Translations under genes and position numbers: made by a program
The notes under the pieces: model-generated
Seen by the model: only the letters and a program-made list of their open reading frames with translations
Databases searched by the model: none
Told to the model about the DNA's origin: nothing
Part shown: positions 72 to 11,841 of the stretch, one piece after another
Position numbering within the stretch: position 1 is the stretch's first letter
How the letters are laid out: every line of letters begins with the position of its first letter
Assembly (NCBI GenBank): GCA_030832135.1
Contig: JAURJS010000043.1
Span: 1-11,898, forward strand
Direction of reading: 5' to 3'
Length of the DNA: 11,898 nucleotides
Source: Candidatus Planktophila sp.
GTDB lineage: Bacteria > Actinomycetota > Actinomycetes > Nanopelagicales > Nanopelagicaceae

Positions 72-530
72 CTAGATGCCTAGACTGCTTCCTAGTTTTA
101 CGCCTTTCCATGAAAGATATTTATTTGCATCATTGCGCACCATCGCATCACACCGTAGCCACCGCTCGCCCTTAGCCCAGGCAGCAGGATCTGGCGTATA
201 CCAAGCCCAGTAGGTGAAGAATCCATTATCAATCAATCCATTATCGCCCCAGGCACGGCAGAGAGATTCGGCAAGGTTTAAAGCTTCCTCTTCATCCATT
301 AACTCCGGCTTTGTCTTCAGAGGCCACTTCGTCACAACAAAAGTCTCAGCATTATGAGTCGATGAGCACTTAACCGGATTCTTACGGGCATAGGCAGCTG
401 AGACATCAGATGAGGTAAGCATAAAGCACTGCCCCACCTTGGGCTTTACTGTGTAGGCAGCGTTGGCTGGCTGGATCAGAAAACTTGAGAAGACGGCCAG
501 AACTCCGACAATCGCAATAGAGCGCTTCAC
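72..530 (-). CDS. Small secreted four-cysteine protein, septum-formation-like
   Basis: This is a 152-aa exported protein. It starts at a GTG preceded by an AAAGGGG ribosome site 7 nt upstream. A signal peptide is clear: MKRS, a hydrophobic core (residues 5-19), then a likely signal peptidase I cut after A24 in PANA-AY. The mature part has four cysteines (C35, C55, C91, C127), probably two disulfides. Motifs GQCF (33-36), VKCSSTHNAE (53-62) and W118-G121-RWLRC127 resemble the actinobacterial 'septum formation' domain (G-x-C-F, V-x-C-S-x-x-H-x-x-E, W-x-x-G-x-R-x-x-C). That match is from memory of the family pattern and the biochemical role of the family is poorly known. The gene is divergent from the AAA+ ATPase and shares a symmetric promoter region with it. 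It would act outside the membrane, perhaps at the cell wall. Identity as an extracellular disulfide protein is firm; the family name is moderate. Confidence 0.85.
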   Translation of the reverse strand: MKRSIAIVGVLAVFSSFLIQPANAAYTVKPKVGQCFMLTSSDVSAAYARKNPVKCSSTHNAETFVVTKWPLKTKPELMDEEEALNLAESLCRAWGDNGLIDNGFFTYWAWYTPDPAAWAKGERWLRCDAMVRNDANKYLSWKGVKLGSSLGI

Positions 531-679: not shown

Positions 680-1942
680 ATGAAGATACGTAAAGAGGTT
701 GAAGAGCTCGCAATCGAGGTCTGCAAGCGTCATTCACATGCAGAGATCCTTCAGCTCCACGTCCTTCGCGCCCTTCAAAGCAAGATTGGCACCGCAGGCA
801 GCGATATCACTACAAAAATTATTGATAAAGAGCTAGATAAGATTCCAGTAATTAGAAATGCCTCAATCAGCATGACCGAAGCGGCAGCAAATATGCTGGA
901 TATGTTAGAGACAAATGATCCTGTTGAAGTAAGAGATAACTTCACTACCTGGTACTTCTCTCCGCCCGAGAACGAAGATGGCGAGACTCCCCCAGGAAAT
1001 GCCCCACATACAGATAAACCGGCAGCTCCAGCTCAACCGAAGAAGAGCGCTCCCACCGCCAAGAAGCCGGCATCAGGTAAGCGCGAATCACTCGATGATG
1101 TCTTGGCTGAATTAAATTCTCTTATCGGACTTGAGAAGGCGAAGAATCAGGTCAATGCGTTGATCGCTCTCCATAATGCGAACACAATTCGCAAGGCACA
1201 AAATCTTCCTCCTGTCCCAGTTGGCCTCCACCTCGTCTTCACGGGAAATCCTGGAACTGGCAAGACAACAGTCGCTCGCCTCATTGGTCGCTTATATAGA
1301 GCAATCGGATTATTAGATGGTGGCCAGCTGATTGAAGTTGATCGTTCCCAATTAGTTGCAGGTTATGTTGGCCAAACTGCAATTCGAACTCAAGAGGCAA
1401 TCAACTCAGCCGATGGTGGCGTTCTCTTCATTGATGAGGCCTACTCTCTCGTGAGTGACTCTGGCTCCAACAATGGCTTCGGTGATGAGGCAATCTCAAC
1501 TTTGGTGAAAGCTATGGAAGATAGGCGAGATAGCCTTGCAGTGGTTGTCGCTGGGTATAGCGGTGCGATGGAAGAATTCATTAAATCTAACCAGGGACTG
1601 AAATCTCGCTTTCAAACTTTTATCGAGTTCGAAGATTATGGAACAGAAGATCTCATCAAGATATTCAAGGGGATCGCTGCAGAATCTAAGGTCAACTGCA
1701 CGCCAGAGGTAGAAGATGCGCTACGAAGTTACATCACTGATCTCAAGCCAACAGGCGAAGACGGTAACGGTCGATTTGCAAGAAATCTCTTCGAGAAGAT
1801 GTTCCTTAACCTCACCACTCGCGCAATGGCAGATGGCACAATTGAAGCCCACGAACTCGAAGCTTTCACGACTGCCGATATCCCTGAATTGCCAAAGAAG
1901 CCAGGGGTCGACCCAAATAAACCAAAATTCGGGTTTATTTAG
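680..1942 (+). CDS. AAA+ ATPase of the CbbX/SpoVK/EccA type
   Basis: This 420-aa cytoplasmic protein has a helical N-terminal region (1-95) with faint resemblance to a Clp N-type repeat, a Pro/Lys/Ala-rich linker (about 100-135), and one AAA+ module (about 137-400). Walker A is GNPGTGKT (189-196) and Walker B is VLFIDEA (248-254; D252, E253). A candidate pore loop is AGYVGQTA (227-234) and sensor 1 lies in VVVAGY (288-293). The arginine finger is likely R310 in GLKSRF, and sensor 2 lies in GNGRFARNLFE (362-372). This pattern is that of the CbbX/SpoVK/EccA clade, whose members use ATP to remodel protein complexes; the target here is unknown. It is not MoxR-like, despite the nearby vWA gene. 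The gene faces the operon tail to tail, overlapping by 4 bp. The start at 680 lacks a ribosome site, but a promoter sits just upstream. ATPase assignment is firm; a role with the tubulin-like operon is inferred from position. Confidence 0.93.
   Translation: MKIRKEVEELAIEVCKRHSHAEILQLHVLRALQSKIGTAGSDITTKIIDKELDKIPVIRNASISMTEAAANMLDMLETNDPVEVRDNFTTWYFSPPENEDGETPPGNAPHTDKPAAPAQPKKSAPTAKKPASGKRESLDDVLAELNSLIGLEKAKNQVNALIALHNANTIRKAQNLPPVPVGLHLVFTGNPGTGKTTVARLIGRLYRAIGLLDGGQLIEVDRSQLVAGYVGQTAIRTQEAINSADGGVLFIDEAYSLVSDSGSNNGFGDEAISTLVKAMEDRRDSLAVVVAGYSGAMEEFIKSNQGLKSRFQTFIEFEDYGTEDLIKIFKGIAAESKVNCTPEVEDALRSYITDLKPTGEDGNGRFARNLFEKMFLNLTTRAMADGTIEAHELEAFTTADIPELPKKPGVDPNKPKFGFI
1915..1940. terminator. 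Hairpin at the convergent gene ends
   Basis: AAATAAACC (1915-1923) and GGTTTATTT (1932-1940) form a perfect 9-bp stem with an 8-nt loop. It spans the last codons of the AAA+ gene and starts immediately at the stop of the 570-aa gene. A separate perfect palindrome GGGTCGACCC (1905-1914) adjoins it. The stem is AT-rich and lacks a clean T-run after it, so termination would be weak. It could serve both directions. Confidence 0.4.
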
Positions 1943-3651
1943 TCGTCATCCTCATCATGGTCATCGCCACCAATAGTTGGATCATCCACAGGAGCACTAC
2001 TTTCCACTGCACCTGAATCCTCGGTCACGCCTCTTGGATTAATCTTTAATGCGTGTGGCTTCATCGGAGTTGACAGGTCCATGCGAATCACAATATCCAT
2101 TGGCAGATTTGCTGTCTCTGGATATGTTTCGACTCTCGCGCCAGGATTTTCCTTAGCCAACTCTTTGAGTCTTTCTGGAACCACAAAGTGTGAAGTGAGC
2201 TTCTCGTGATAACCCTTCATAATCTCACCTGGAGCCAGAGAGGCAAGGCTGAAAGGAGTTACAACTCCGTTAAATGGACCGATTGGTTCCTGCAGGAACT
2301 TATCCCAATCCACCCTCTCTTCCTCTTCTAAACCTGCTTGATCGGCTTGGATGGCATCAAGGCGATTGGTTCGATTCTCTTTCACAGGTGGACGAGACTT
2401 TGTAATCTCTTCACTCTGTACCTTGAAAGTAAGTGGCACTAGCTGTTTGCGAGCTACCAATTCGAGTGCCTCTTGATTCTCAAGACCCTTGCGAAGCTCC
2501 ATGCGTGGTCCGCCTGGAGAGTAGGCAATATCTTGATCGATACCCTCAACATTCATACGCTCAACAGGGAGACCAACCTTTTGAGCAATAGCCTGAATCT
2601 GATCCTTTAAGACCTTCGTTCTCCAACCACGAATGGCATAACGCTTCATTGTGTTTCCGGTGAGAGCATGCATTGATGCTGAGTCACGTTCTTGAGCTTG
2701 AGCAATTCTGAGTGAGTATGGGAACTCATCTTGGTTAAGGTCAGAAAGATATGACTTAAACCAACGATCGTTCATAGTCCAAGGTCGATTCAAGGAATAT
2801 CCAATGATTTCAAGCCAATCCATCACCTGCGGATAGAGTGAAACCAATCGAACTTCTTCCTGGCGCACTTTATCCACGCCATTTGTCACTTCAGCAAGTT
2901 CATGATTGAGAGTCTTGACGCTCCAGTCGAACTTACGCCAGTCACGGTAATACAACATGAGAGCGCTCACGATGATCACGATGACAGTAGATAAGGTGTA
3001 TCTAAATATAAGTGAGCCAAAACTGGTCAACTTTAGAGCCCATGCAAAAGGCAGATAGGCAGTAATCAAGAAATAGATAAGCCAGACCAGAAGGCCTCCA
3101 CCGATGGCGCTCAAGATGGTTTTATGGAAACGCTTTCTCAATCGAACTAACTCACCTGGCTGTGGAACCTTGATGTTCTCCATCACTTCACGGTAGCCAG
3201 CCTGCATTAGAGCAATAGCGCCGAGATTCTCTTTCATCTTGGCAACCATCTTCCATAGGAAGGTTCTTGAGTGACGGTTGACCCAATCCGCAAAATCCGA
3301 TGCTGCTTCTTCCTTGATCTTGATTGCATCAGTGAGCTCTTCGGCTAATTTGGAGAGCTTCTCTCGCTCTTCCTTAAGTTTTGCCACTTCTTCTTCGCGT
3401 GATTGCTCAGCAGCCGCACGAGCAGCTTCCGCTTCCTCTTCGGCTTTCTTGCGTGCTTCCTCTGCCGAATTATCTGGCACTTCTGGTGTCTCCGGAGGTG
3501 TGACGACAGGCTCCACTACAGGGGATTCTTCAGGAGTCTCGGGAGGTGTTACTGATTCAGGAGTCTCAGGAGGTGCAACCTGGTCAGGATTTGCCAGGAA
3601 ATCATCCGACTCTTTCGCAGGTGTCGGATCGAGATTCTCTTCGTTACTCAT
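1939..3651 (-). CDS. Coiled-coil membrane-anchored protein, unknown family
   Basis: This is a 570-aa protein that I do not recognise. The N-terminus (1-60) is acidic and proline-rich, with three PPETPE repeats (27-32, 37-42, 52-57 approximately). A charged Ala/Glu/Lys-rich helix follows (62-118), very likely a coiled coil. Two hydrophobic helices (about 178-200 and 213-235) with a short turn between them form a membrane hairpin. With no signal peptide, both long ends should be cytoplasmic. The C-terminal half (240-540) is a mixed soluble region, ending in an acidic tail DDHDEDDD (563-570). The start is fixed by a strong AGAAGGAG site 6 nt upstream; it overlaps the 522-aa gene by 8 bp, so translation is probably coupled. 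It is the last gene of the operon. A scaffold or membrane anchor for the tubulin-like protein is the simplest reading, but this is inference. Confidence 0.9.
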   Translation of the reverse strand: MSNEENLDPTPAKESDDFLANPDQVAPPETPESVTPPETPEESPVVEPVVTPPETPEVPDNSAEEARKKAEEEAEAARAAAEQSREEEVAKLKEEREKLSKLAEELTDAIKIKEEAASDFADWVNRHSRTFLWKMVAKMKENLGAIALMQAGYREVMENIKVPQPGELVRLRKRFHKTILSAIGGGLLVWLIYFLITAYLPFAWALKLTSFGSLIFRYTLSTVIVIIVSALMLYYRDWRKFDWSVKTLNHELAEVTNGVDKVRQEEVRLVSLYPQVMDWLEIIGYSLNRPWTMNDRWFKSYLSDLNQDEFPYSLRIAQAQERDSASMHALTGNTMKRYAIRGWRTKVLKDQIQAIAQKVGLPVERMNVEGIDQDIAYSPGGPRMELRKGLENQEALELVARKQLVPLTFKVQSEEITKSRPPVKENRTNRLDAIQADQAGLEEEERVDWDKFLQEPIGPFNGVVTPFSLASLAPGEIMKGYHEKLTSHFVVPERLKELAKENPGARVETYPETANLPMDIVIRMDLSTPMKPHALKINPRGVTEDSGAVESSAPVDDPTIGGDDHDEDDD

Positions 3652-5212
3652 GGCTCTCTCCTTCTAGCTCGGAGAGCTTCTTATCAATTTCAACCATTCG
3701 ATTTAACTTTTCATCTAGTTCGCTTCTGCACTTTTCAAGATGCGCGCTATGAACAGCTACAAGCTCATCCGCTCTATCAATGTTAGCCCAACCAATGACC
3801 TTCACTTCGCTCAGTGGCGCTAAATCTGGACTCAGTGACCAAGTCTCTTGAGGATCCTGGATTACATCAGAAACCTTAGAAAAGATTGGGGCGCGATCAT
3901 CGAATTTTTCAATTCCAAATTTCGCTAAATCCCCGCCTTCAAGGAAACCAAAGATAAGTTCCCTAATCTCAGACCACAAAGTCGCTCTTGAAACAGAGGT
4001 TGCTTTTCGGAATGGCGCAATCAAAGCTTTCTGAGCGTCCTTTACGTTATCGTCAATCTTCTCCATCTGGCTAAATATTTGACGGTCACGAATATCTTCA
4101 GAATCATGCTGATCGATACCAACAAATAGACCACCCTCTGTGCCTGCAAGGGAATTCTGCAATTTTCTGCCGATCCGTCGGCGGAACCAGATCCAGCACC
4201 ACTTAGGCATCACGATGAATCTCTGTCCAGCAAAGATAAAGAAATCCTTAATTATCTTCCACTCTGTCCAGCGGCTCCATTCAAGCTCAGATAAATCTTC
4301 CGGTGCCTTAAATGCAAGGACAGCTCTATCGCTCTCAAAGACAATTTCCACCATCGAATCAACCCATGACTCCACATCGTCTTCAGGGATGAATACCGTT
4401 CCAGGAATTTCTGCAACCAAGCCCTTGGCATGCAGATCGATCTTCGGATCGGCAATGTCGGAAAGAACAGATGCAGCGATTCTCCGTGAAAGCCCATCGG
4501 TCAATACTGAATTAACGAAGACTCGTGAGAGTTGATAAGAATGTGCTCCACTTTCAGGCTTTGCCAAATCATCAAATGGGCTTCGAGCAATTCCATTCCA
4601 AAGGCCACCGGTTGCAGCAACATGCATGGCAATAAACTTTGGGTATCGCTCATCCTCTTTAACAAATCTATCTCCTGAGAGAGGTGTCTTGCGATCCTCT
4701 GGAGAAGCGATTACATGGTGATCCCACTTACCTTTAAAGACAAATGAATACTCTGTCTTCTTTAGCTCAGTCGGATAGATAACAAGATTTATCCGTCGAA
4801 GGTCTGTCTTGCTTCCTGCTTTGTCCTCTCCAGTTAGCAATGGAAGAGACTTGTATACCGTGTCTGCAAAATGATCGAATTTCTTATATTCAGTTGCATC
4901 AGGTTCGTAGCTGTTCGAAAGCACTCGAACTGCAATTACTCTCACAACTGAGAATTCATTTCGAGCCATGACATTAAATGGATCTATTTCAATTCCGGTC
5001 AGTTCGCGATCTTCGTCCAAGCCCCATACGGTTCCGCGAACCGTTGGAGGACCGAACTCCTCGATCTGAATATCTTCAGCGCTCAGCCAGATGAAGTTTC
5101 CCAAAAGCCCATCGGAAATCCATGCCTTCAATTGCTCATGCACCATCGGGTATCGATCTTCGCTTGGAAGCAGAACGATACTTAAGGTGTTATTAACCCA
5201 TTGAAATGACAT
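3644..5212 (-). CDS. 522-aa protein of unknown family in the tubulin-like operon
   Basis: I do not recognise this protein. No signal peptide, P-loop or catalytic motif is visible. Residues 1-300 look like a mixed alpha/beta soluble region. An unusual stretch at about 323-350 combines aromatic and basic residues (FFIFAGQRFIVM, then PKWCWIWFRRRIGRK); it could be a membrane-binding amphipathic segment or a basic interaction surface. The C-terminus (about 480-520) is charged and helical, with heptad-like Leu/Ile spacing, probably a short coiled coil. The start at 5212 is 2 bp after the stop of the tubulin-like gene; a GAGGA lies about 12 nt upstream, a little far, so coupling is likely. It overlaps the next gene by 8 bp. 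Its fixed place between the tubulin-like gene and the coiled-coil membrane gene suggests an adaptor. Being a real gene is firm; function is unknown. Confidence 0.88.
   Translation of the reverse strand: MSFQWVNNTLSIVLLPSEDRYPMVHEQLKAWISDGLLGNFIWLSAEDIQIEEFGPPTVRGTVWGLDEDRELTGIEIDPFNVMARNEFSVVRVIAVRVLSNSYEPDATEYKKFDHFADTVYKSLPLLTGEDKAGSKTDLRRINLVIYPTELKKTEYSFVFKGKWDHHVIASPEDRKTPLSGDRFVKEDERYPKFIAMHVAATGGLWNGIARSPFDDLAKPESGAHSYQLSRVFVNSVLTDGLSRRIAASVLSDIADPKIDLHAKGLVAEIPGTVFIPEDDVESWVDSMVEIVFESDRAVLAFKAPEDLSELEWSRWTEWKIIKDFFIFAGQRFIVMPKWCWIWFRRRIGRKLQNSLAGTEGGLFVGIDQHDSEDIRDRQIFSQMEKIDDNVKDAQKALIAPFRKATSVSRATLWSEIRELIFGFLEGGDLAKFGIEKFDDRAPIFSKVSDVIQDPQETWSLSPDLAPLSEVKVIGWANIDRADELVAVHSAHLEKCRSELDEKLNRMVEIDKKLSELEGESHE
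3658..3665 (-). promoter_or_regulatory. Strong ribosome binding site of the 570-aa gene
   Basis: AGAAGGAG on the minus strand lies 6 nt before the ATG at 3651, inside the end of the upstream gene. It is the best ribosome site in the operon and would allow strong independent initiation of the last gene as well as coupling. Confidence 0.7.
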
Positions 5213-5214
5213 GA

Positions 5215-8200
5215 TTAATCGTCGTCCTCACCAATCTCGATGATATCGAGGCTTTGAATATCTTTCTTCAGTGAAGTGAGAGCTGCTATGAATTGCTCTC
5301 TGATATCCCAAGTAAGATCCTTCGACAATGATCCTTCACGGTCTGCTGGAAGGCTCTGCTTTTCAAAGCGTGACTTGTACTTCGAGATATTTTCGTCAAT
5401 GTAAGAAACCATTGCACGCTTGCGCTCATCCGGAGTACCACTAGCACTTCCAGCACGCTTCTCATCTGGCTTAGGTGAAAGTCCAAGATCTCCTGATGTA
5501 ATCCAGATCAAGGTAGGTGAGTCAGGCGTATCGATATCCGCAAGCTTCTGGAGACGGTGATAAGGGGCAAGGGGTGCTAAGGATGCTTGACCGTTTGACT
5601 CAAGGATTGCAATTGCAATTGAATACAAGAGCGCTCCTGGGAAGTCATTTGGACGGATGATTTCTTTTGAAAATAGCGGGTGTGGGAAATCCAGCCAGGA
5701 ATTGTTTGAACTATCCCAAACGCTCAACTTAGGACCAAGTGCAGCTTGAACATCAAGCGGAAGCTGTCGATCCGTCTTAAACTGCTTGAGAGCCTTTGCA
5801 ACGAAGAATCCCTTAAGGATGTCGATCTTTGGCTTCTCAGCAGCTGGAATTGTCTCCCATACGTGGCGAGGATGACGATGCAAAAGAAGCGCTTCACGGG
5901 TGCTAGCAGCTCCATTGTATTTATCCCAGTAGTCTGAGATCGGCTTCATAATTGAATCGAGAACCATTGGCTCAACGCCCTGATGGATGCTGAAGAAGTC
6001 GATGTGCTGCACTGGCGATTGAGCATCAAAGCTGCTGTCGCCTACAGAAGCGAGCATATTGGTCTTCTTAAGTACTGCTTCAACAGCAGGATAAATATCA
6101 TCAGTCTTGGCAATCGGGAAAGTTGAGACCACGGTATTAATGGATGGTCGATTGTTATGAACCTCATTAAGAAGTCGCTGGTTGTAATTGACTAGTGGAG
6201 CACCATCATTGATGGCCTCTTCCAGCTTCGCTACAAACTTATCTTGACGTCTCTTGATCTCTGATCGATCTTCGCCCTTAGATAGATATGAAGCGAGCGT
6301 CTCATTACGGTACATCGCAAATGGAGTACCCATTCGCTTCATCCATTTCTGAGCATATTCCAGATAGTCGAGTGGGTTGATTGACACATCAAACTTAGCA
6401 CTCTGGGGAACTTGGAGAGAGTCTTCGCGCGCTTCCTTTGTTGTAGGCACCCAATCACGAGTAGTAGAGATAAATTCCCACCAATTGCGACGATCGAGGT
6501 CCTTAATCTCATAAGCACCCATAATCACTTCATTAATGACTACCTGCATGGCATTAGCACGTCGAGACTCAGTAACTGAGTTGTTGATGAGCTTTGCGAA
6601 TTCCTTTGGATAGTCATCGGTATCAATGAGTAGCTTCTCATTCTTTGAAGGGCGGAATGAGTTAGGGACGGCGTGAGAGTCTTCCTCTGACCACTTCTCA
6701 TATTCTTCTTTGCTTTCAAGCAAACCTTGGTATATGCCGATGAGGTCACTTCGAAGTGGGTCCATAAAGTTATGGGCCATATCGATAATCAATGTGGCGA
6801 CTTCTTGCTTGAGATTAGCCTCTGCTCTAAAGCTAAATGAGTCAACGACATGCTCAAGAGATGCTTCGACTGCCTGGTGAGTCGCCTCGATTGCTCCTTG
6901 ATTTCTCTCGGGAACCTGACCTAGTTCACCGCGAATGTATGTAGCAAGGTCTCGTGAATACTTGAGAGAGACCTCTGCTTCTGCGCGGAGTTCGGAAGCT
7001 ACAGAGACCAATTTATCTGAAACTCGGCGCAAGATTTCCGCAGTTACCTTGATACCTTGCATGGCTACATAACGTGATGTTGTGGCAAGAATCTCCTGCT
7101 TCTTATTCATCACCCATGGGCGCATGTTCTCAGAGAGGGAAAACGCTTCCCGTCCGAGATAAGAAGAAATCAGCTTATTGAACGCATCCTGCAATGCAGC
7201 ATCCCACTCAAGCAGTGACTGCGCATTAGTTTTCTGATTCACAGACTCACTTGCAGATAGCATAACCTGATTCTTGAATTCTGCGAAGAACGCGGTGCGA
7301 TCTGGGCGAATAGAATCGATAATGTCATTATGCTCTTCGGTCTCTTCATTGAGCTTTAGCTCATCTAGGAATTCAAAGAGGCTCTTATCTGCGAAGAAGG
7401 TGATCCAATCTTCTTCAGTCTTCGTTGCAAACTTGGGATCTTCTTTTGTATGAGCAAAGAGCATCTTATCGATGGCTGAGCGTGCTAGACGTTCTGCTGA
7501 ATACTGAACGAACTTATCCTTGCCGAGCCCTACTCGACCAAATCCAAGTGCTGGAAATGGTGTCGCATCCTTATTCGCTTCCTTGAGTCCAGAGCGATCT
7601 GGAAGGTTATTTTCAAGAGTGGAGCTCGCATAGTTACCTTGAGTAAATTCGATAATTCGCGCATTCACAAATTGGTCTGTCATCCAGGTTGCCAAAGAAG
7701 AAGCAACAGCCTTGTAGACATCCTGCTGAGTCTCAAAGAAACCCTTACCAACCATAAAGTTGTATTTAGCGCCAGGACGGTAATCCTTGTTCGCCTCTGG
7801 AATCTTTGCGCCCATCTTTGCTGAGTAACGCTTAGATCCGCCGGTCATTGACTTGGACCAAGTTCCATTCATCACTTCGCTCATTGCGAAGAGGGCATTT
7901 CCAACAAGAAGCTCTTGATCTACCTCTGTAAATACATCTGGTGCATAGAGCATGTTGTAGATCTCATGAACCCAGTTCTCATTTGGACGAACAGACTTCA
8001 CCAACTCTGCTACCTCAAAGAACTGTCCTGCTCCAGAACCGCCTGCAAGGGAGGTAATGATGATGATTGTTGGGGCTGGCTGAATCTGCTCATTGACCTT
8101 GAGCATCTTTGCAACTGAAATCAAATCTGAAGTCGCTGTTGCGCCCATCAATTTATCAATCTTGTTGCTGAGAGCATTTCTCACAATGTCATTTGAGCCT

Positions 8201-8580
8201 AGGAGTAGGACGCGTCCAACGCCACGGAATTGACCAGCTCCGATCGTAGGGTTGACGCTAACCTCATCTGGGCTCGGCATGAAGCGCAAGAAATCGTCTT
8301 TGTCAGCGGCATCGACATATTGCATCGCGCGCATATAAGAATCTGAGTAAGCCTGACCTGCCTTGGAGAGACCCTGGTAGTCGGTCGGCGGCAAGAGTGG
8401 TGCTGGGAAGTTCGGACCGTCCTGAATAACTGGGCTATCGATATGGAGGAACTGCCATGCGGCAGGAAGTTCTCCCTCCCAGCCAGCTTGTGAGAGCTTT
8501 AATTCAAGATTATTGCGCAAGGCTCGTAGAGTCTTGCCGCCTGAACCACCGACGCCAATGAGAAGGAACTTAGATAGCAT
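5215..8580 (-). CDS. Large tubulin/FtsZ-superfamily protein (Tubulin_2-like)
   Basis: This 1121-aa cytoplasmic protein starts with FLLIGVGGSGGKTL (5-18), matching the glycine-rich T1 loop region of FtsZ and tubulins. After a beta strand (171-176) comes LAGGSGAGQ (178-186), the equivalent of the GGGTGSG/GGGTGTG nucleotide signature, followed by a helix. GAGQFRGVGRVLLLG (114-128) is also typical of the large bacterial Tubulin_2 proteins as I recall them. Residue N228 in VGNALFAMSE may contact the base. I cannot find a clear NxDxxD T7 loop, so GTP hydrolysis is unproven. The fold region ends near residue 360-380; the remaining 700 or more residues are largely helical, with no motif I recognise, and end in acidic GEDDD. 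FtsZ itself is under 500 aa, so this is not the cell-division FtsZ. A GAAAGG site sits 7 nt upstream of the ATG. It follows the vWA gene by 25 bp. A GTP-dependent polymer at the membrane is the likely role, by inference. Confidence 0.9.
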   Translation of the reverse strand: MLSKFLLIGVGGSGGKTLRALRNNLELKLSQAGWEGELPAAWQFLHIDSPVIQDGPNFPAPLLPPTDYQGLSKAGQAYSDSYMRAMQYVDAADKDDFLRFMPSPDEVSVNPTIGAGQFRGVGRVLLLGSNDIVRNALSNKIDKLMGATATSDLISVAKMLKVNEQIQPAPTIIIITSLAGGSGAGQFFEVAELVKSVRPNENWVHEIYNMLYAPDVFTEVDQELLVGNALFAMSEVMNGTWSKSMTGGSKRYSAKMGAKIPEANKDYRPGAKYNFMVGKGFFETQQDVYKAVASSLATWMTDQFVNARIIEFTQGNYASSTLENNLPDRSGLKEANKDATPFPALGFGRVGLGKDKFVQYSAERLARSAIDKMLFAHTKEDPKFATKTEEDWITFFADKSLFEFLDELKLNEETEEHNDIIDSIRPDRTAFFAEFKNQVMLSASESVNQKTNAQSLLEWDAALQDAFNKLISSYLGREAFSLSENMRPWVMNKKQEILATTSRYVAMQGIKVTAEILRRVSDKLVSVASELRAEAEVSLKYSRDLATYIRGELGQVPERNQGAIEATHQAVEASLEHVVDSFSFRAEANLKQEVATLIIDMAHNFMDPLRSDLIGIYQGLLESKEEYEKWSEEDSHAVPNSFRPSKNEKLLIDTDDYPKEFAKLINNSVTESRRANAMQVVINEVIMGAYEIKDLDRRNWWEFISTTRDWVPTTKEAREDSLQVPQSAKFDVSINPLDYLEYAQKWMKRMGTPFAMYRNETLASYLSKGEDRSEIKRRQDKFVAKLEEAINDGAPLVNYNQRLLNEVHNNRPSINTVVSTFPIAKTDDIYPAVEAVLKKTNMLASVGDSSFDAQSPVQHIDFFSIHQGVEPMVLDSIMKPISDYWDKYNGAASTREALLLHRHPRHVWETIPAAEKPKIDILKGFFVAKALKQFKTDRQLPLDVQAALGPKLSVWDSSNNSWLDFPHPLFSKEIIRPNDFPGALLYSIAIAILESNGQASLAPLAPYHRLQKLADIDTPDSPTLIWITSGDLGLSPKPDEKRAGSASGTPDERKRAMVSYIDENISKYKSRFEKQSLPADREGSLSKDLTWDIREQFIAALTSLKKDIQSLDIIEIGEDDD

Positions 8581-8587
8581 TTTTTAG

Positions 8588-8593
8588 CCTTTC
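8588..8593 (-). promoter_or_regulatory. Ribosome binding site of the tubulin-like gene
   Basis: GAAAGG on the minus strand lies 7 nt before the ATG at 8580, in the 25-bp gap after the vWA gene. The next codons give the FLLIGVGGSGG loop right at the N-terminus, as expected for the family, so this start is secure. Confidence 0.65.
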
Positions 8594-8605
8594 GATTGTC
8601 TTGAA

Positions 8606-11401
8606 TTAAATTCGTTTTGGTTTATCGCCAGTGCCTGGACGAATGGAAGGAGTTGGTGTGCTTGTTGGTGATGGCGCAGATGTCGGTGATGAAGTACCTG
8701 GACGAATCGGGGTCGAGGTAGTCGACGATGTTGATGAAGTTCCAGAAGGACGAGTACCAGGACGTACCCGTGCGACACCTGAAGTTGGAGTAGTTCCTCC
8801 GCCTTCACCTGGGCGTGGTCCACGCTTTGGTGGCTTTACTCCTCCACCGCCGCCGCCCTTAGGGTCATCTCCCTTTCCATCGGTTTTTCCTGAACCGGGG
8901 CGATTGAATTTACCGCCCTCTGACTTCTTCACCAGTGATTCAGCCTTGACTACCTCGGCAAGACGAGTGATAGCTGGCCAGATACCTGGCGTATGTGTCA
9001 CTGATTGGAAGACCTTTTGATACTGATCCGTCTCACGTGAGTTTGCTCGCTTGAAGATAACGAGTTTTCCAGAGACAGCTGTGTTCCTATCAAACTTTGC
9101 CAATTCAGAATCTGGAATCTGTAGTACCCAAATCTTCGCAAGGTCATCTGAGGTAGGTGCAATCTTTCCGGATTCAAAGTGCTTCTTCATCCGAGGCACA
9201 GCATGAGCCAGAGTGATGACTCGATTTCCATCTTGGGCCGCAACTTCATACCAAGGGCCAGGGAATACGAGCTTTGAAACCTTTGCCTTGAAGTTAAAGC
9301 CATGGTCGGTAAATGTGCGCACATCGCCCATTTGCTGCATTCCCTTAAAGTCAAGATCCTCGGAAATCAACTTACTTCCATCAGGTGCCGTAAATCCGCC
9401 ATCTGGATTCACCTTCACGTTATAGACGTTGCGCTTGAGCTGGCTACCGACATTGAGTTTGGTAACAAACCAATTGAGTAGGTAGATCAAAACAAGTGGA
9501 AGTAGGGTGCCGAGTATCAACAGAATTGTGCGGACAAGACCCTTTGGACCCACGGTTCCCGTGTGGAGCCAAGTTTCAGCATTCAAAGTGAAATTCTTCC
9601 CGGGCTCAGCATCAGAGAAATATGAGATAGGAATTCCTAGAATGACATCTGACTCAGCCGTCACTGAATTATCAACATTCAACTTTAGGCTTGCGACTTC
9701 ACCCTGGCGAATTGGTAGGCAACCGTCTGCATCAACACCGGAGACCGATACCTCATATGAATCAGCACGGGAATATTTATCCTCAATAACGACAGGCTTT
9801 GCGTCGTCATCAATACAGATTTTTCCGTCAGTGTTCTTAGGTCCTAAGAATTCAACTGTTCCAGTTGCTGGACCTAGTTTCTTGTTGAGATCGCTAAGGA
9901 CAATAGGTTCGTTCTTAAGAGTTGGATAATTGCTAAGAAGTCTCACATCAATCTTCTGGGAGATAGAGACAGGTGCGAGTTCAATACCGCTCTTAGTCTT
10001 TAGATAAAGCGTGATACGGACTTCGGCTTCCGCACTGCCAGTTCCAGGTGTGAATTTCTGCAACATAAAGCTTGCAGGATTGCTTTGGTCGGCCTCTTTC
10101 TTTGCGCCGCTCTTGCCACCTGAGATCAACTCAACAGTGATTGGGTGGTTTGAGTCGTACTTCGTTAAGTCAGCTGGGAGACCTGTGGACTGCGAAACAA
10201 CTTTTCCAGAGAGAATTCCTGCCTTGCCTGAAATGAATTGCGTACCTGGATCAATGCGGATGTCGAGTCCGCTGCAATAGAAGAGAACTGAGTCTCCCCC
10301 ATTTCCGTTGAACTTCCACTTGCCTCTACCAGAGCTATTTGTGCCAACCTTGATTTGAGCCGCACCGGCAGTCTCAAAGACACGGATGCCCTTGCTTGAT
10401 GCGTAGAGTGACTTACCCTTTGGGTCTTCGAGGCGCCAATCACGAGCGGTTGTGACTATCTGGAATTCGCTTATGCCATTTTCAATTTCAAACTCATCTT
10501 CTCCACGACCAAACTTTTCGACATTTGCACAACCCTCAATACGTGGAGGCAGCTTCAAGAACTCAAAAGCAAGTTCTTTTGGATCGCTTGCCACAAACAA
10601 TGCGCCTTGGCGATAATTCTTTGGGACTGGATATGTACCGCACGTTAGATCTTTGCCATCTGATTGAGTTCCATTACCAGTGACCATCGGCCCCATCAAG
10701 GACATCAAGAAAGCCTGACCCTCTTGTTCTTCTTGGGTAAGTCGAGCAAGCGCATCTTCGTTCTTAAGCAGAATTCCAAGAACAGTCACGCCATTCTTTC
10801 GCAGGACATCAAAGCGATTGGAGCAAAGACTAACGATGGCATCTGCGGTCTTTTCAGTTGTTGTGAGCTGAATTCCACCATCGGTAAGCCAGATAAGCGT
10901 GCTACATCCATTTGTTCGTGAATGCTGTGCGTTGAGCTCATCAATGGCGCCATTGATTCCTTGCAGCCAATCTGTGAGCTGTCCGTTCTTACGATCGCGG
11001 ACTTCTGCATTGAGGCGAGCCGCCTCTGGGACAATTCCGCCCTTATTCACAGTACGCCAAGGCTGCCAGACGCTATAAGTATGCGCAAAGAAGGCGACTG
11101 AGTAATTGACGGTCACATCATTTTTAAATGAAGCCAACTGCTGCAAGCTTGAGCTCAAAATATCTGCGCGATCATCTTTTGGATCAGTTGCCTTAAGGCT
11201 TCCTGATTCATCAATGAGATAGAAAACATCGAGCGTCTTATTCTTACCTTGAGATTGCAGGCAGCGTCCTAAATCTTCAAAGGCGCCATTGAAAGCACCA
11301 TTGTGATTATCAGCCGTTGCTGCTGGAAGCAAAGCCGGAATCGCTCCAAGAGTTCCCACGCTTAGGAAAGCTATGACAAAAAGTGCGAATAATTTCTTCA
11401 T
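8606..11401 (-). CDS. Secreted, membrane-anchored vWA-domain protein
   Basis: This 931-aa protein has a signal peptide (1-30; cut likely after A30 in AATA-DN). A von Willebrand factor A domain spans about 56-285, with metal site D64-x-S66-x-S68 (IDESGS), a candidate MIDAS threonine near T143, and TDG (173-175). Beta-rich regions with scattered cysteines follow (about 300-615). One transmembrane helix (about 622-645) is followed by positively charged residues, so the vWA part is outside and the C-terminus inside. The inner part has a folded region (650-820) and a disordered tail (826-931) with a glycine run and five RPG(S/E/T) motifs (R834, R862, R880, R900, R921), ending basic. vWA domains bind proteins through a divalent metal. 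The start is 2 bp after the preceding stop with only a weak ribosome site, so coupling is likely. It precedes the tubulin-like gene by 25 bp. It may link an outside partner to the inner polymer, which is inference. Confidence 0.93.
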   Translation of the reverse strand: MKKLFALFVIAFLSVGTLGAIPALLPAATADNHNGAFNGAFEDLGRCLQSQGKNKTLDVFYLIDESGSLKATDPKDDRADILSSSLQQLASFKNDVTVNYSVAFFAHTYSVWQPWRTVNKGGIVPEAARLNAEVRDRKNGQLTDWLQGINGAIDELNAQHSRTNGCSTLIWLTDGGIQLTTTEKTADAIVSLCSNRFDVLRKNGVTVLGILLKNEDALARLTQEEQEGQAFLMSLMGPMVTGNGTQSDGKDLTCGTYPVPKNYRQGALFVASDPKELAFEFLKLPPRIEGCANVEKFGRGEDEFEIENGISEFQIVTTARDWRLEDPKGKSLYASSKGIRVFETAGAAQIKVGTNSSGRGKWKFNGNGGDSVLFYCSGLDIRIDPGTQFISGKAGILSGKVVSQSTGLPADLTKYDSNHPITVELISGGKSGAKKEADQSNPASFMLQKFTPGTGSAEAEVRITLYLKTKSGIELAPVSISQKIDVRLLSNYPTLKNEPIVLSDLNKKLGPATGTVEFLGPKNTDGKICIDDDAKPVVIEDKYSRADSYEVSVSGVDADGCLPIRQGEVASLKLNVDNSVTAESDVILGIPISYFSDAEPGKNFTLNAETWLHTGTVGPKGLVRTILLILGTLLPLVLIYLLNWFVTKLNVGSQLKRNVYNVKVNPDGGFTAPDGSKLISEDLDFKGMQQMGDVRTFTDHGFNFKAKVSKLVFPGPWYEVAAQDGNRVITLAHAVPRMKKHFESGKIAPTSDDLAKIWVLQIPDSELAKFDRNTAVSGKLVIFKRANSRETDQYQKVFQSVTHTPGIWPAITRLAEVVKAESLVKKSEGGKFNRPGSGKTDGKGDDPKGGGGGGVKPPKRGPRPGEGGGTTPTSGVARVRPGTRPSGTSSTSSTTSTPIRPGTSSPTSAPSPTSTPTPSIRPGTGDKPKRI
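8631..8769. repeat. Short DNA repeats encoding RPGT motifs
   Basis: GTGCCTGGACGAAT (8631-8644) and GTACCTGGACGAAT (8694-8707) differ at one base, and GTACCAGGACGTAC (8754-8767) is a looser copy. They encode the RPGT motifs of the vWA tail on the minus strand, at about 60-bp spacing. This suggests growth by duplication of a short unit inside a low-complexity tail. Confidence 0.55.
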
Positions 11402-11403
11402 CT

Positions 11404-11736
11404 CTATGACGCAATCTTTTCGGCTATATCCGTCGCCATTGCATAGATATGAGGGAAGGCAACGAGAAAAGAAACGCCGGTTAGAACGCGCAAGATGCGT
11501 GAGTACGTTGCATTCTGCTCAAACCACTGATCGTTTCCCTTACCTCTGCGCTGAGCAATCGTGTCCCATCCCATGCTCAGGGCTACACATAGCGGAGTTA
11601 AGACATATCCGATGAGATGAAGCGTGAATGCATGAGCAACAGATCGCGTGAGAAGGTAAATCACAATACTTAAGATGAGAGCAAGGAGTGCTACGAGTAC
11701 TGGCAAGAAGGACGCCTTCGACGATTTCTTTGCCAT
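11404..11736 (-). CDS. Small three-helix membrane protein, first gene of operon
   Basis: This 110-aa protein has a basic N-terminus (MAKKSSK) and three hydrophobic helices at about 10-29, 36-56 and 80-100. A charged loop (60-78, AQRRGKGNDQ) separates the last two. I do not recognise the family. The start at 11736 is chosen because GTGAGGAG lies 9 nt upstream. An in-frame ATG at 11820 would add 28 residues with no ribosome site and an untypical sequence, so it is rejected. The stop is 2 bp before the vWA start, so the two are co-translated or coupled. It may be a membrane partner of the vWA protein or part of a membrane platform for the operon products. Small size and lack of motifs keep the function open. 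Confidence 0.8.
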   Translation of the reverse strand: MAKKSSKASFLPVLVALLALILSIVIYLLTRSVAHAFTLHLIGYVLTPLCVALSMGWDTIAQRRGKGNDQWFEQNATYSRILRVLTGVSFLVAFPHIYAMATDIAEKIAS

Positions 11737-11789: not shown

Positions 11790-11841
11790 AGAGTCGTAGT
11801 GTTCTAGAGATGAAACCCATTGACTAGACATTTTGGACAAG

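Follow-up and report, generated by a model that had tools for sequence, protein, structure and literature searches.

The window analysed here is the whole of contig JAURJS010000043.1 (11,898 nucleotides; G000:C117 in our labels, in which G stands for genomes and L for loci taken from named records or from other sources). It belongs to a Candidatus Planktophila sp. genome bin (G000) of 0.93 Mb, given as 60% complete. The window carries a module of genes on the minus strand, separated by 2-25 bp or overlapping by 8 bp, that combines a tubulin-like protein with a von Willebrand factor A (vWA) protein. The first gene of the module encodes a small membrane protein (11404..11736; 110 amino acids (aa) from the ATG or 138 aa if the start lies at 11820). 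It is followed by a 931-aa vWA protein (8606..11401), a 1121-aa protein of the Tubulin_2/FtsZl1 group (5215..8580) and two genes for the N-terminal (522 aa; 3644..5212) and C-terminal (570 aa; 1939..3651) halves of a protein that we call F2. No Pfam family was matched above its cut-off by the 522-aa, 570-aa and small membrane proteins in the scan of the window's proteins. All the genes named by the first-pass annotation, which include an AAA+ ATPase gene at the end of the module, are present in the window as it described them.

Relatives were collected with a profile of 33 sequences (A1), which yielded 55 loci from named records, and further loci came from other genomes. Hidden Markov models (HMMs) of the module genes were run over 70 sources, 63 of which contained a tubulin of the window's subfamily and seven did not (L068-L071, L073, L076 and L081). 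After removal of the duplicate records L079 and L080, 61 loci were kept. Of the 57 loci that extend 1.5 kb or more upstream of the tubulin gene, 55 had the vWA gene immediately before it (exceptions L055 and L066), and F2 lay directly downstream in 50 of the 51 loci with room for it (exception L055). A homologue of the small membrane protein was in place in 49 of the 51 loci whose upstream sequence reached 3.6 kb or more, the exceptions being L055 and L075, the latter with a weak match. The four components stood in this order in 44 of the 46 loci with enough flank for all of them; because members of the same loci went into the HMMs, the counts speak more to gene order than to independent detection. 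A BLAST search with only the 522-aa protein of the window found matches at 40 of the 55 named-record loci. The window's tubulin subfamily was found in 5 out of 151 genomes of the order (starting genome included), and relatives of the vWA and tubulin genes stood side by side in these same five. This shared occurrence, together with the conserved gene order, indicates that the association is not due to chance, and the co-occurrence in other genomes on which the first-pass annotation had staked its cluster is borne out. Distances in the vWA, tubulin and F2 trees correlated at 0.94-0.95 (n=48 loci; permutation maximum 0.23), much of which could arise from shared species history alone. Five loci (L021, L045, L048, L055 and L066) have titles (Planococcus, Luminiphilus, Bifidobacterium breve) that seem to fit an actinobacterial module badly, and they are possibly misnamed or mixed assemblies.

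BLAST of the loci showed that, in most relatives, the 522-aa and 570-aa proteins correspond to the first and second half of one protein of ~800-1250 aa. The first-pass annotation had counted them as separate components, which is right for the genes of the window but not for the protein encoded by most relatives. The halves are also separate genes in L053, L078, L054 (the same as L079), L052, L034, L030 and L020, and the split or fused state changed at least three times on a 24-row tree. At the junction in the window, AAGGAG precedes an ATG that shares bases with the stop codon of the first gene (ATGAGTAA), which argues for a real, translationally coupled gene boundary. The N-terminal half (F2-N) belongs to no recognised family: Pfam searches with 25 members returned nothing beyond weak matches, and sequence comparison with solved structures gave two weak matches (E = 0.39 and 0.5). 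Its AF2 model had a pLDDT of 72.1, and its relatives include a Candidatus Nanopelagicaceae bacterium protein with 72% identity. The possibility that F2-N is itself a tubulin was unsupported by profile comparison. In the 570-aa half, hydropathy alone indicated two spans (aa 179-197 and 215-233), which would form a membrane hairpin (2953..3117); this half also has an A/E/K-rich stretch, coiled-coil-like as judged by eye, and a C-terminal part. A tubulin-F2 fusion in Rathayibacter was also considered and rejected, since the long open reading frames of L026, L031 and L035 match F2 and not tubulin and are thus frame extensions.

The tubulin-like protein matched Tubulin_2 (PF13809) well above the curated cut-off (E=1e-37; 130.7 bits against 27). 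Its T1-type nucleotide loop, GVGGSGGKT (8530..8556; loop name by analogy), was invariant in the 33 sequences of the A1 profile, which had been gathered before this motif served as a search pattern. The tubulin/FtsZ signature loop AGGSGAG (aa 179-185; 8026..8046; T4 by analogy) was near-invariant in A1 and in 33 aligned locus proteins, and it is a variant of the FtsZl1 signature GGGTG(S/T)G of Makarova and Koonin (2010; PMC2875224). In the structure model, long helices (H456-508, H510-543 and H569-622; 6715..7215) form part of an insert inside the tubulin fold and are joined by later helices, in keeping with FtsZl1, which has a long coiled coil and a C-terminal part made of helices; the coiled coil is putative here. 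Tubulin-family structures matched the model from residue 2 to ~890-1000. According to the available text of PMC2875224, FtsZl1 and FtsZl2 are structurally the most diverged proteins of the tubulin superfamily, and the T6-H7 region and the C-terminal tubulin domain were not identified in FtsZl1. By contrast, our model matches tubulins past the N-terminal domain, so that the protein appears to keep the tubulin fold beyond this domain and around the long insert, which bears on the doubt raised in 2010. The Pfam match and the model comparison therefore support the membership of the tubulin superfamily claimed by the first-pass annotation. When solved structures were searched by sequence with the tubulin profile, none was found at E up to 1, and hydropathy gave no membrane spans. 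FtsZ (PF00091) was present once in each of five other module-bearing genomes, where the tubulin-like protein is thus an addition to FtsZ, and it was not found in the incomplete G000. L055 (5029-12824) contains two tubulin genes of the subfamily, one before and one after its membrane and vWA genes; the second is cut by the contig end, and the arrangement recalls the two-tubulin firmicute systems in the available text of Kaur et al. (2020; PMC7159879). Other Tubulin_2 subfamilies of the phylum are represented by L068, L069, L070, L071 and L073, and in L069 and L071 a large two-span protein also follows the tubulin gene.

The 931-aa protein matched VWA_2 (E=1.3e-6; 29.4 bits against a cut-off of 27). 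The D, S and S of its metal ion-dependent adhesion site (MIDAS) motif DxSxS (DESGS; 11198..11212), as well as a later T-D-G, were identical in 36 out of 36 aligned vWA proteins, and sequence searches of solved structures found none for this protein. Hydropathy alone gave a signal-like N-terminal hydrophobic segment and one later span (aa 621-639; 9485..9541; hydropathy 2.3 over 19 residues), which predicts a vWA domain outside the cell and a tail of about 290 aa in the cytoplasm. The domain match and the hydropathy profile agree with the surface vWA protein with one membrane span that had been suggested previously. The small membrane protein presented two hydrophobic spans in its 138-aa reading and two or three in the copies examined by hydropathy (nine loci), and the predicted spans of these proteins support a link of the gene set to the membrane. 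An intact MIDAS, one span and a cytoplasmic tail, next to a tubulin devoid of spans, could also describe an adhesion-cytoskeleton link, in which an integrin-like receptor would hold the cell to particles or partner cells and the tubulin would act as a load-bearing scaffold. The titles of the loci include genera of soil, plant-surface and freshwater bacteria. Pfam recognised no adhesin domain except vWA, and such a link would not explain the nuclease described below; we consider it quite unlikely.

Operons joining FtsZl1 and vWA genes were reported in PMC2875224, which proposed a role in membrane remodelling and already included actinobacteria as one FtsZl1 clade. As far as its available text goes, the window shares with that system a Tubulin_2 protein that contains long helices and has a C-terminal part of helices, a vWA gene in the operon and other unnamed membrane proteins; F2 may be one of the unnamed families (A1-A2, B1-B9) of that paper. 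The P-loop GTPase of those operons, frequent but not universal, was not recognised among the seven proteins of the window, whose contig ends nearby. Likewise, Pfam recognised in the window no OmpA-family or Ser/Thr kinase gene, which are also frequent but not universal there, so the resemblance without GTPase or OmpA pointed out by the first-pass annotation stands. A later study (PMC9871819, 2023) equates Tubulin_2 with the FtsZl1 group and, in its available text, omits the group from its trees.

A second published relative is the theme of an actinobacterial tubulin and a membrane vWA protein with GAP1-N2, placed among conflict systems in PMC7159879. The window shares with this theme, as given in the available text, a single tubulin bearing a helical extension and a vWA protein bound to the membrane, where the system is predicted to act. 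GAP1-N2 (PF20013) was not found in G000 (60% complete), G299, G385, G403 and G406; overall, one of the 25 Tubulin_2 genomes examined for it contained it. Both L082 and L083 carry FNIII/HRDC-like and GAP1-N2 genes after the vWA-tubulin-F2 trio. The FNIII/HRDC label of the L082 protein was assigned by eye, as Pfam gave no match, and phmmer found no match to this protein in the window or in L013-L081, where fast-changing repeats could hide one. Concerning the DO-GTPase of the theme, no GTPase was recognised in the window proteins or the L083 genes scanned, the search not extending to whole genomes. A quick tree, with other Tubulin_2 proteins as the root, placed the GAP1-bearing pair among GAP1-less modules, with a long-branch warning at that place and some weak forks. 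This position suggests that the four-component module is likely the core and that GAP1 was added in one branch. The module is thus a variant of previously predicted systems. The earlier suggestion of an undescribed Gram-positive variant does not hold for the actinobacterial FtsZl1 clade or for the GAP1-N2 tubulin-vWA theme, both already published, but it may hold for the GAP1-less four-component form with F2, which was not found in the available text of PMC2875224 or PMC7159879. Among the open-licence papers listed by full-text searches, we found no experimental study of these proteins.

We then considered the genes that accompany the module. In 22 out of 61 loci the flank contained an HNH nuclease gene of the GmrSD_C/DUF1524 type, as detected with an HMM built from 12 of those 22. 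The nuclease gene directly adjoined the module in all but L013 and L045 (1.5-2.7 kb off). It was located downstream on the same strand in Microbacteriaceae and Cellulosimicrobium, upstream and divergent in Occultella and one Georgenia, upstream on the same strand in Demequina, and downstream and convergent in Nocardioides and L052. A density of 13 genes in 14 genomes (~37.3 Mb) would predict about 0.22 nucleases in the 625,723 bases of flank, and the density of G230 alone (two in 3.4 Mb, including the one at its module) about 0.4; the 22 loci are not independent, with at least five state changes on the 24-row tree. Computed searches placed a span before the nuclease domain in 21 and the HNH core pattern in 20 of the 22 proteins, which are therefore predicted to be membrane-anchored and outward-facing. 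Examples are L059 16579-17514 of Microbacterium flavescens JCM 3877, where the nuclease gene comes after the module, L037 5773-6708, L063 5787-6794 and L064 15978-17285. The L064 gene adds an Excalibur domain and that of L045 a lamin-tail domain, the nuclease part of L045 being seen with our own HMM only, as Pfam gave no GmrSD_C. We also scanned 124 neighbour proteins out of 134 from 24 loci (the 10 proteins of L061 and L017 were omitted and those above 900 aa excluded). GmrSD_C was the commonest Pfam family (8), followed by UPF0114 (4) and Excalibur (3); the remaining families among the 25 listed of 111 had one or two members each, and many were common metabolic or GTPase families.

The nuclease is the only recurrent defence neighbour among the proteins scanned. 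This, the tubulin fold, the membrane proteins of the module and the FtsZl1 proposal of PMC2875224 would agree with membrane remodelling or vesicle formation, in which tubulin on the inner face would bend the membrane via F2 and the vWA protein would sense or anchor to the wall. We find this unlikely: a minority of genomes carry the module, unlike what a basic envelope function would entail, the outward nuclease is left unexplained, and a reviewer of PMC2875224 doubted remodelling in the available text, offering transport or signalling instead.

An exported Septum_form-like protein (PF13845; E=2.6e-10) is encoded in the window at 72..530 on the minus strand, and similar genes lie near the module at L078 14922-15395 and L079 15654-16160. 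Such proteins were found near the module in 3 out of 5 module genomes, one of which (G406) is of another genus, and one weak sub-cut-off match was seen among 7 genomes without the module. The protein is a possible module accessory in the window's genus. Corynebacterium glutamicum, used as a control genome, showed matches to Tubulin_2, GmrSD_C, Septum_form and GAP1-N2.

At larger scale, Tubulin_2 was found in 10 out of 296 genomes from the phylum (not all of them of this subfamily) and in 13 out of 249 genomes of G230's family, the starting genome being included in both counts. Two Rhodococcus megaplasmids carried a relative, and these were the only ones in 72,556 plasmid records, and no relative was found in the phage records searched. 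A plasmid-partition tubulin of the TubZ type, which the two megaplasmids would favour, is hard to reconcile with these numbers or with the module of G299, which lies on a single 1.43-Mb contig and is chromosomal. TubZ systems have a TubR-like DNA-binding partner and centromere repeats, and an operon with a membrane vWA protein is unlike partition loci. Judged on this operon content, we regard a partition role as close to negligible. At the insertion site of G299, the flanking gene for an MFS transporter had relatives in 31 out of 31 genomes of the genus. The gene on the other flank occurred in 1 out of 31, G299 itself, so no empty insertion site could be defined. About 3.6 kb from the G299 module is a restriction-modification gene of the MmeI type (L079 2-1144), truncated where the L079 sequence begins.

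Taken together, we propose that the module is a four-component, membrane-anchored vWA-tubulin operon that couples a receptor to a tubulin and drives a surface response against cells or DNA, a reading that we hold with roughly even confidence. Gene order, conservation, fold, the MIDAS and nucleotide-loop motifs and the spans were read from sequence or model, and from them we infer the function. The vWA domain outside the cell would bind a ligand, such as a peptide or a surface structure, and the cytoplasmic tail would relay the signal to the tubulin. The latter would bind GTP and build filaments or patches under the membrane. F2, with its cytosolic half, coiled-coil-like stretch and membrane hairpin, would act as the membrane tether of the filament, and the receptor would be assisted by the small membrane protein. 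The most likely output would be a response at the cell surface, directed at other cells or at invading DNA. We favour such a conflict role because the module is patchily distributed and because an outward HNH nuclease lies in or near the operon in many lineages. In the window, the exported Septum_form-like protein may fill the place of the nuclease. The GAP1-N2 and FNIII/HRDC-like genes after the trio in L082 and L083, the theme of PMC7159879 in its available text, also speak for kinship with conflict systems.

Several points weigh against this proposal. GTP binding, filament formation and contacts between the components are putative. The 55 named-record loci derive from two sequence patterns. 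No nuclease was found on the window's contig or in the 60%-complete G000, 39 out of 61 loci had none in the available flank, and in G299, G385, G403 and G406 it was on another contig or 80 kb away. PADLOC revealed no recurrent defence family among the 124 neighbours, 22 loci yielding 57 families with at most two proteins each; some of these scores were strong, and the background rate of such matches was not computed. As for transfer, one clade of the window, L053, G403 (L078) and G299 (L054) was rejected (p-AU 2e-76), so the copies of the window's genus do not form one clade, and the module was probably passed between lineages. This test used a quick tree and one model, its group was picked after the FastTree tree had been seen, L053 is of uncertain genus, and gene loss among ancient paralogues could disrupt the clade as well. 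The fixed four-component core, present even in a lineage with genomes of ~1.3-1.5 Mb, offers a small gene set in which to ask whether a bacterial surface receptor is coupled through the membrane to a tubulin polymer. A functional link to the nuclease would connect a tubulin of bacteria with DNA defence at the cell surface.

Finally, the gene that abuts the module encodes a 420-aa AAA+ ATPase with AAA_lid_6 (Pfam) at 680..1942 on the plus strand. It is convergent with the 570-aa gene, which it overlaps by 4 bp. The first-pass annotation had taken it for a substitute component, that is, an AAA+-driven machine with the ATPase in place of the GTPase. The overlap with the module end and the same placement in L053 would be in line with this idea. 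However, the gene is on the opposite strand, and a full-length relative beside the module (72% identity) was found at L053 only among the 55 named-record loci; the other 54, some of them with little flank, showed none, and L019 gave a short weak match. Across the 151 genomes of the order, strong AAA+ matches were restricted to G000 and G366, and G343 and G302 gave weak, partial matches; G366 lacked a tubulin match, and none of the four remaining tubulin genomes gave an AAA+ match. The lack of co-occurrence, together with the 1 out of 55 loci, leads us to reject the ATPase as a module component, and we judge the gene, from these comparisons, to be a neighbour outside the conserved module, which makes an AAA+-driven machine very improbable. 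The protein resembles CbbX, SpoVK and EccA in sequence across the AAA+ domain and lid, and it scored below the equivalog cut-offs of SpoVK (245 against 423 bits), EccA (215 against 467) and CbbX (198 against 459), as well as below the cut-off of each NCBIfam model among the 25 of 34 matches listed. The solved structures nearest to it were those of CbbX and EccA1.

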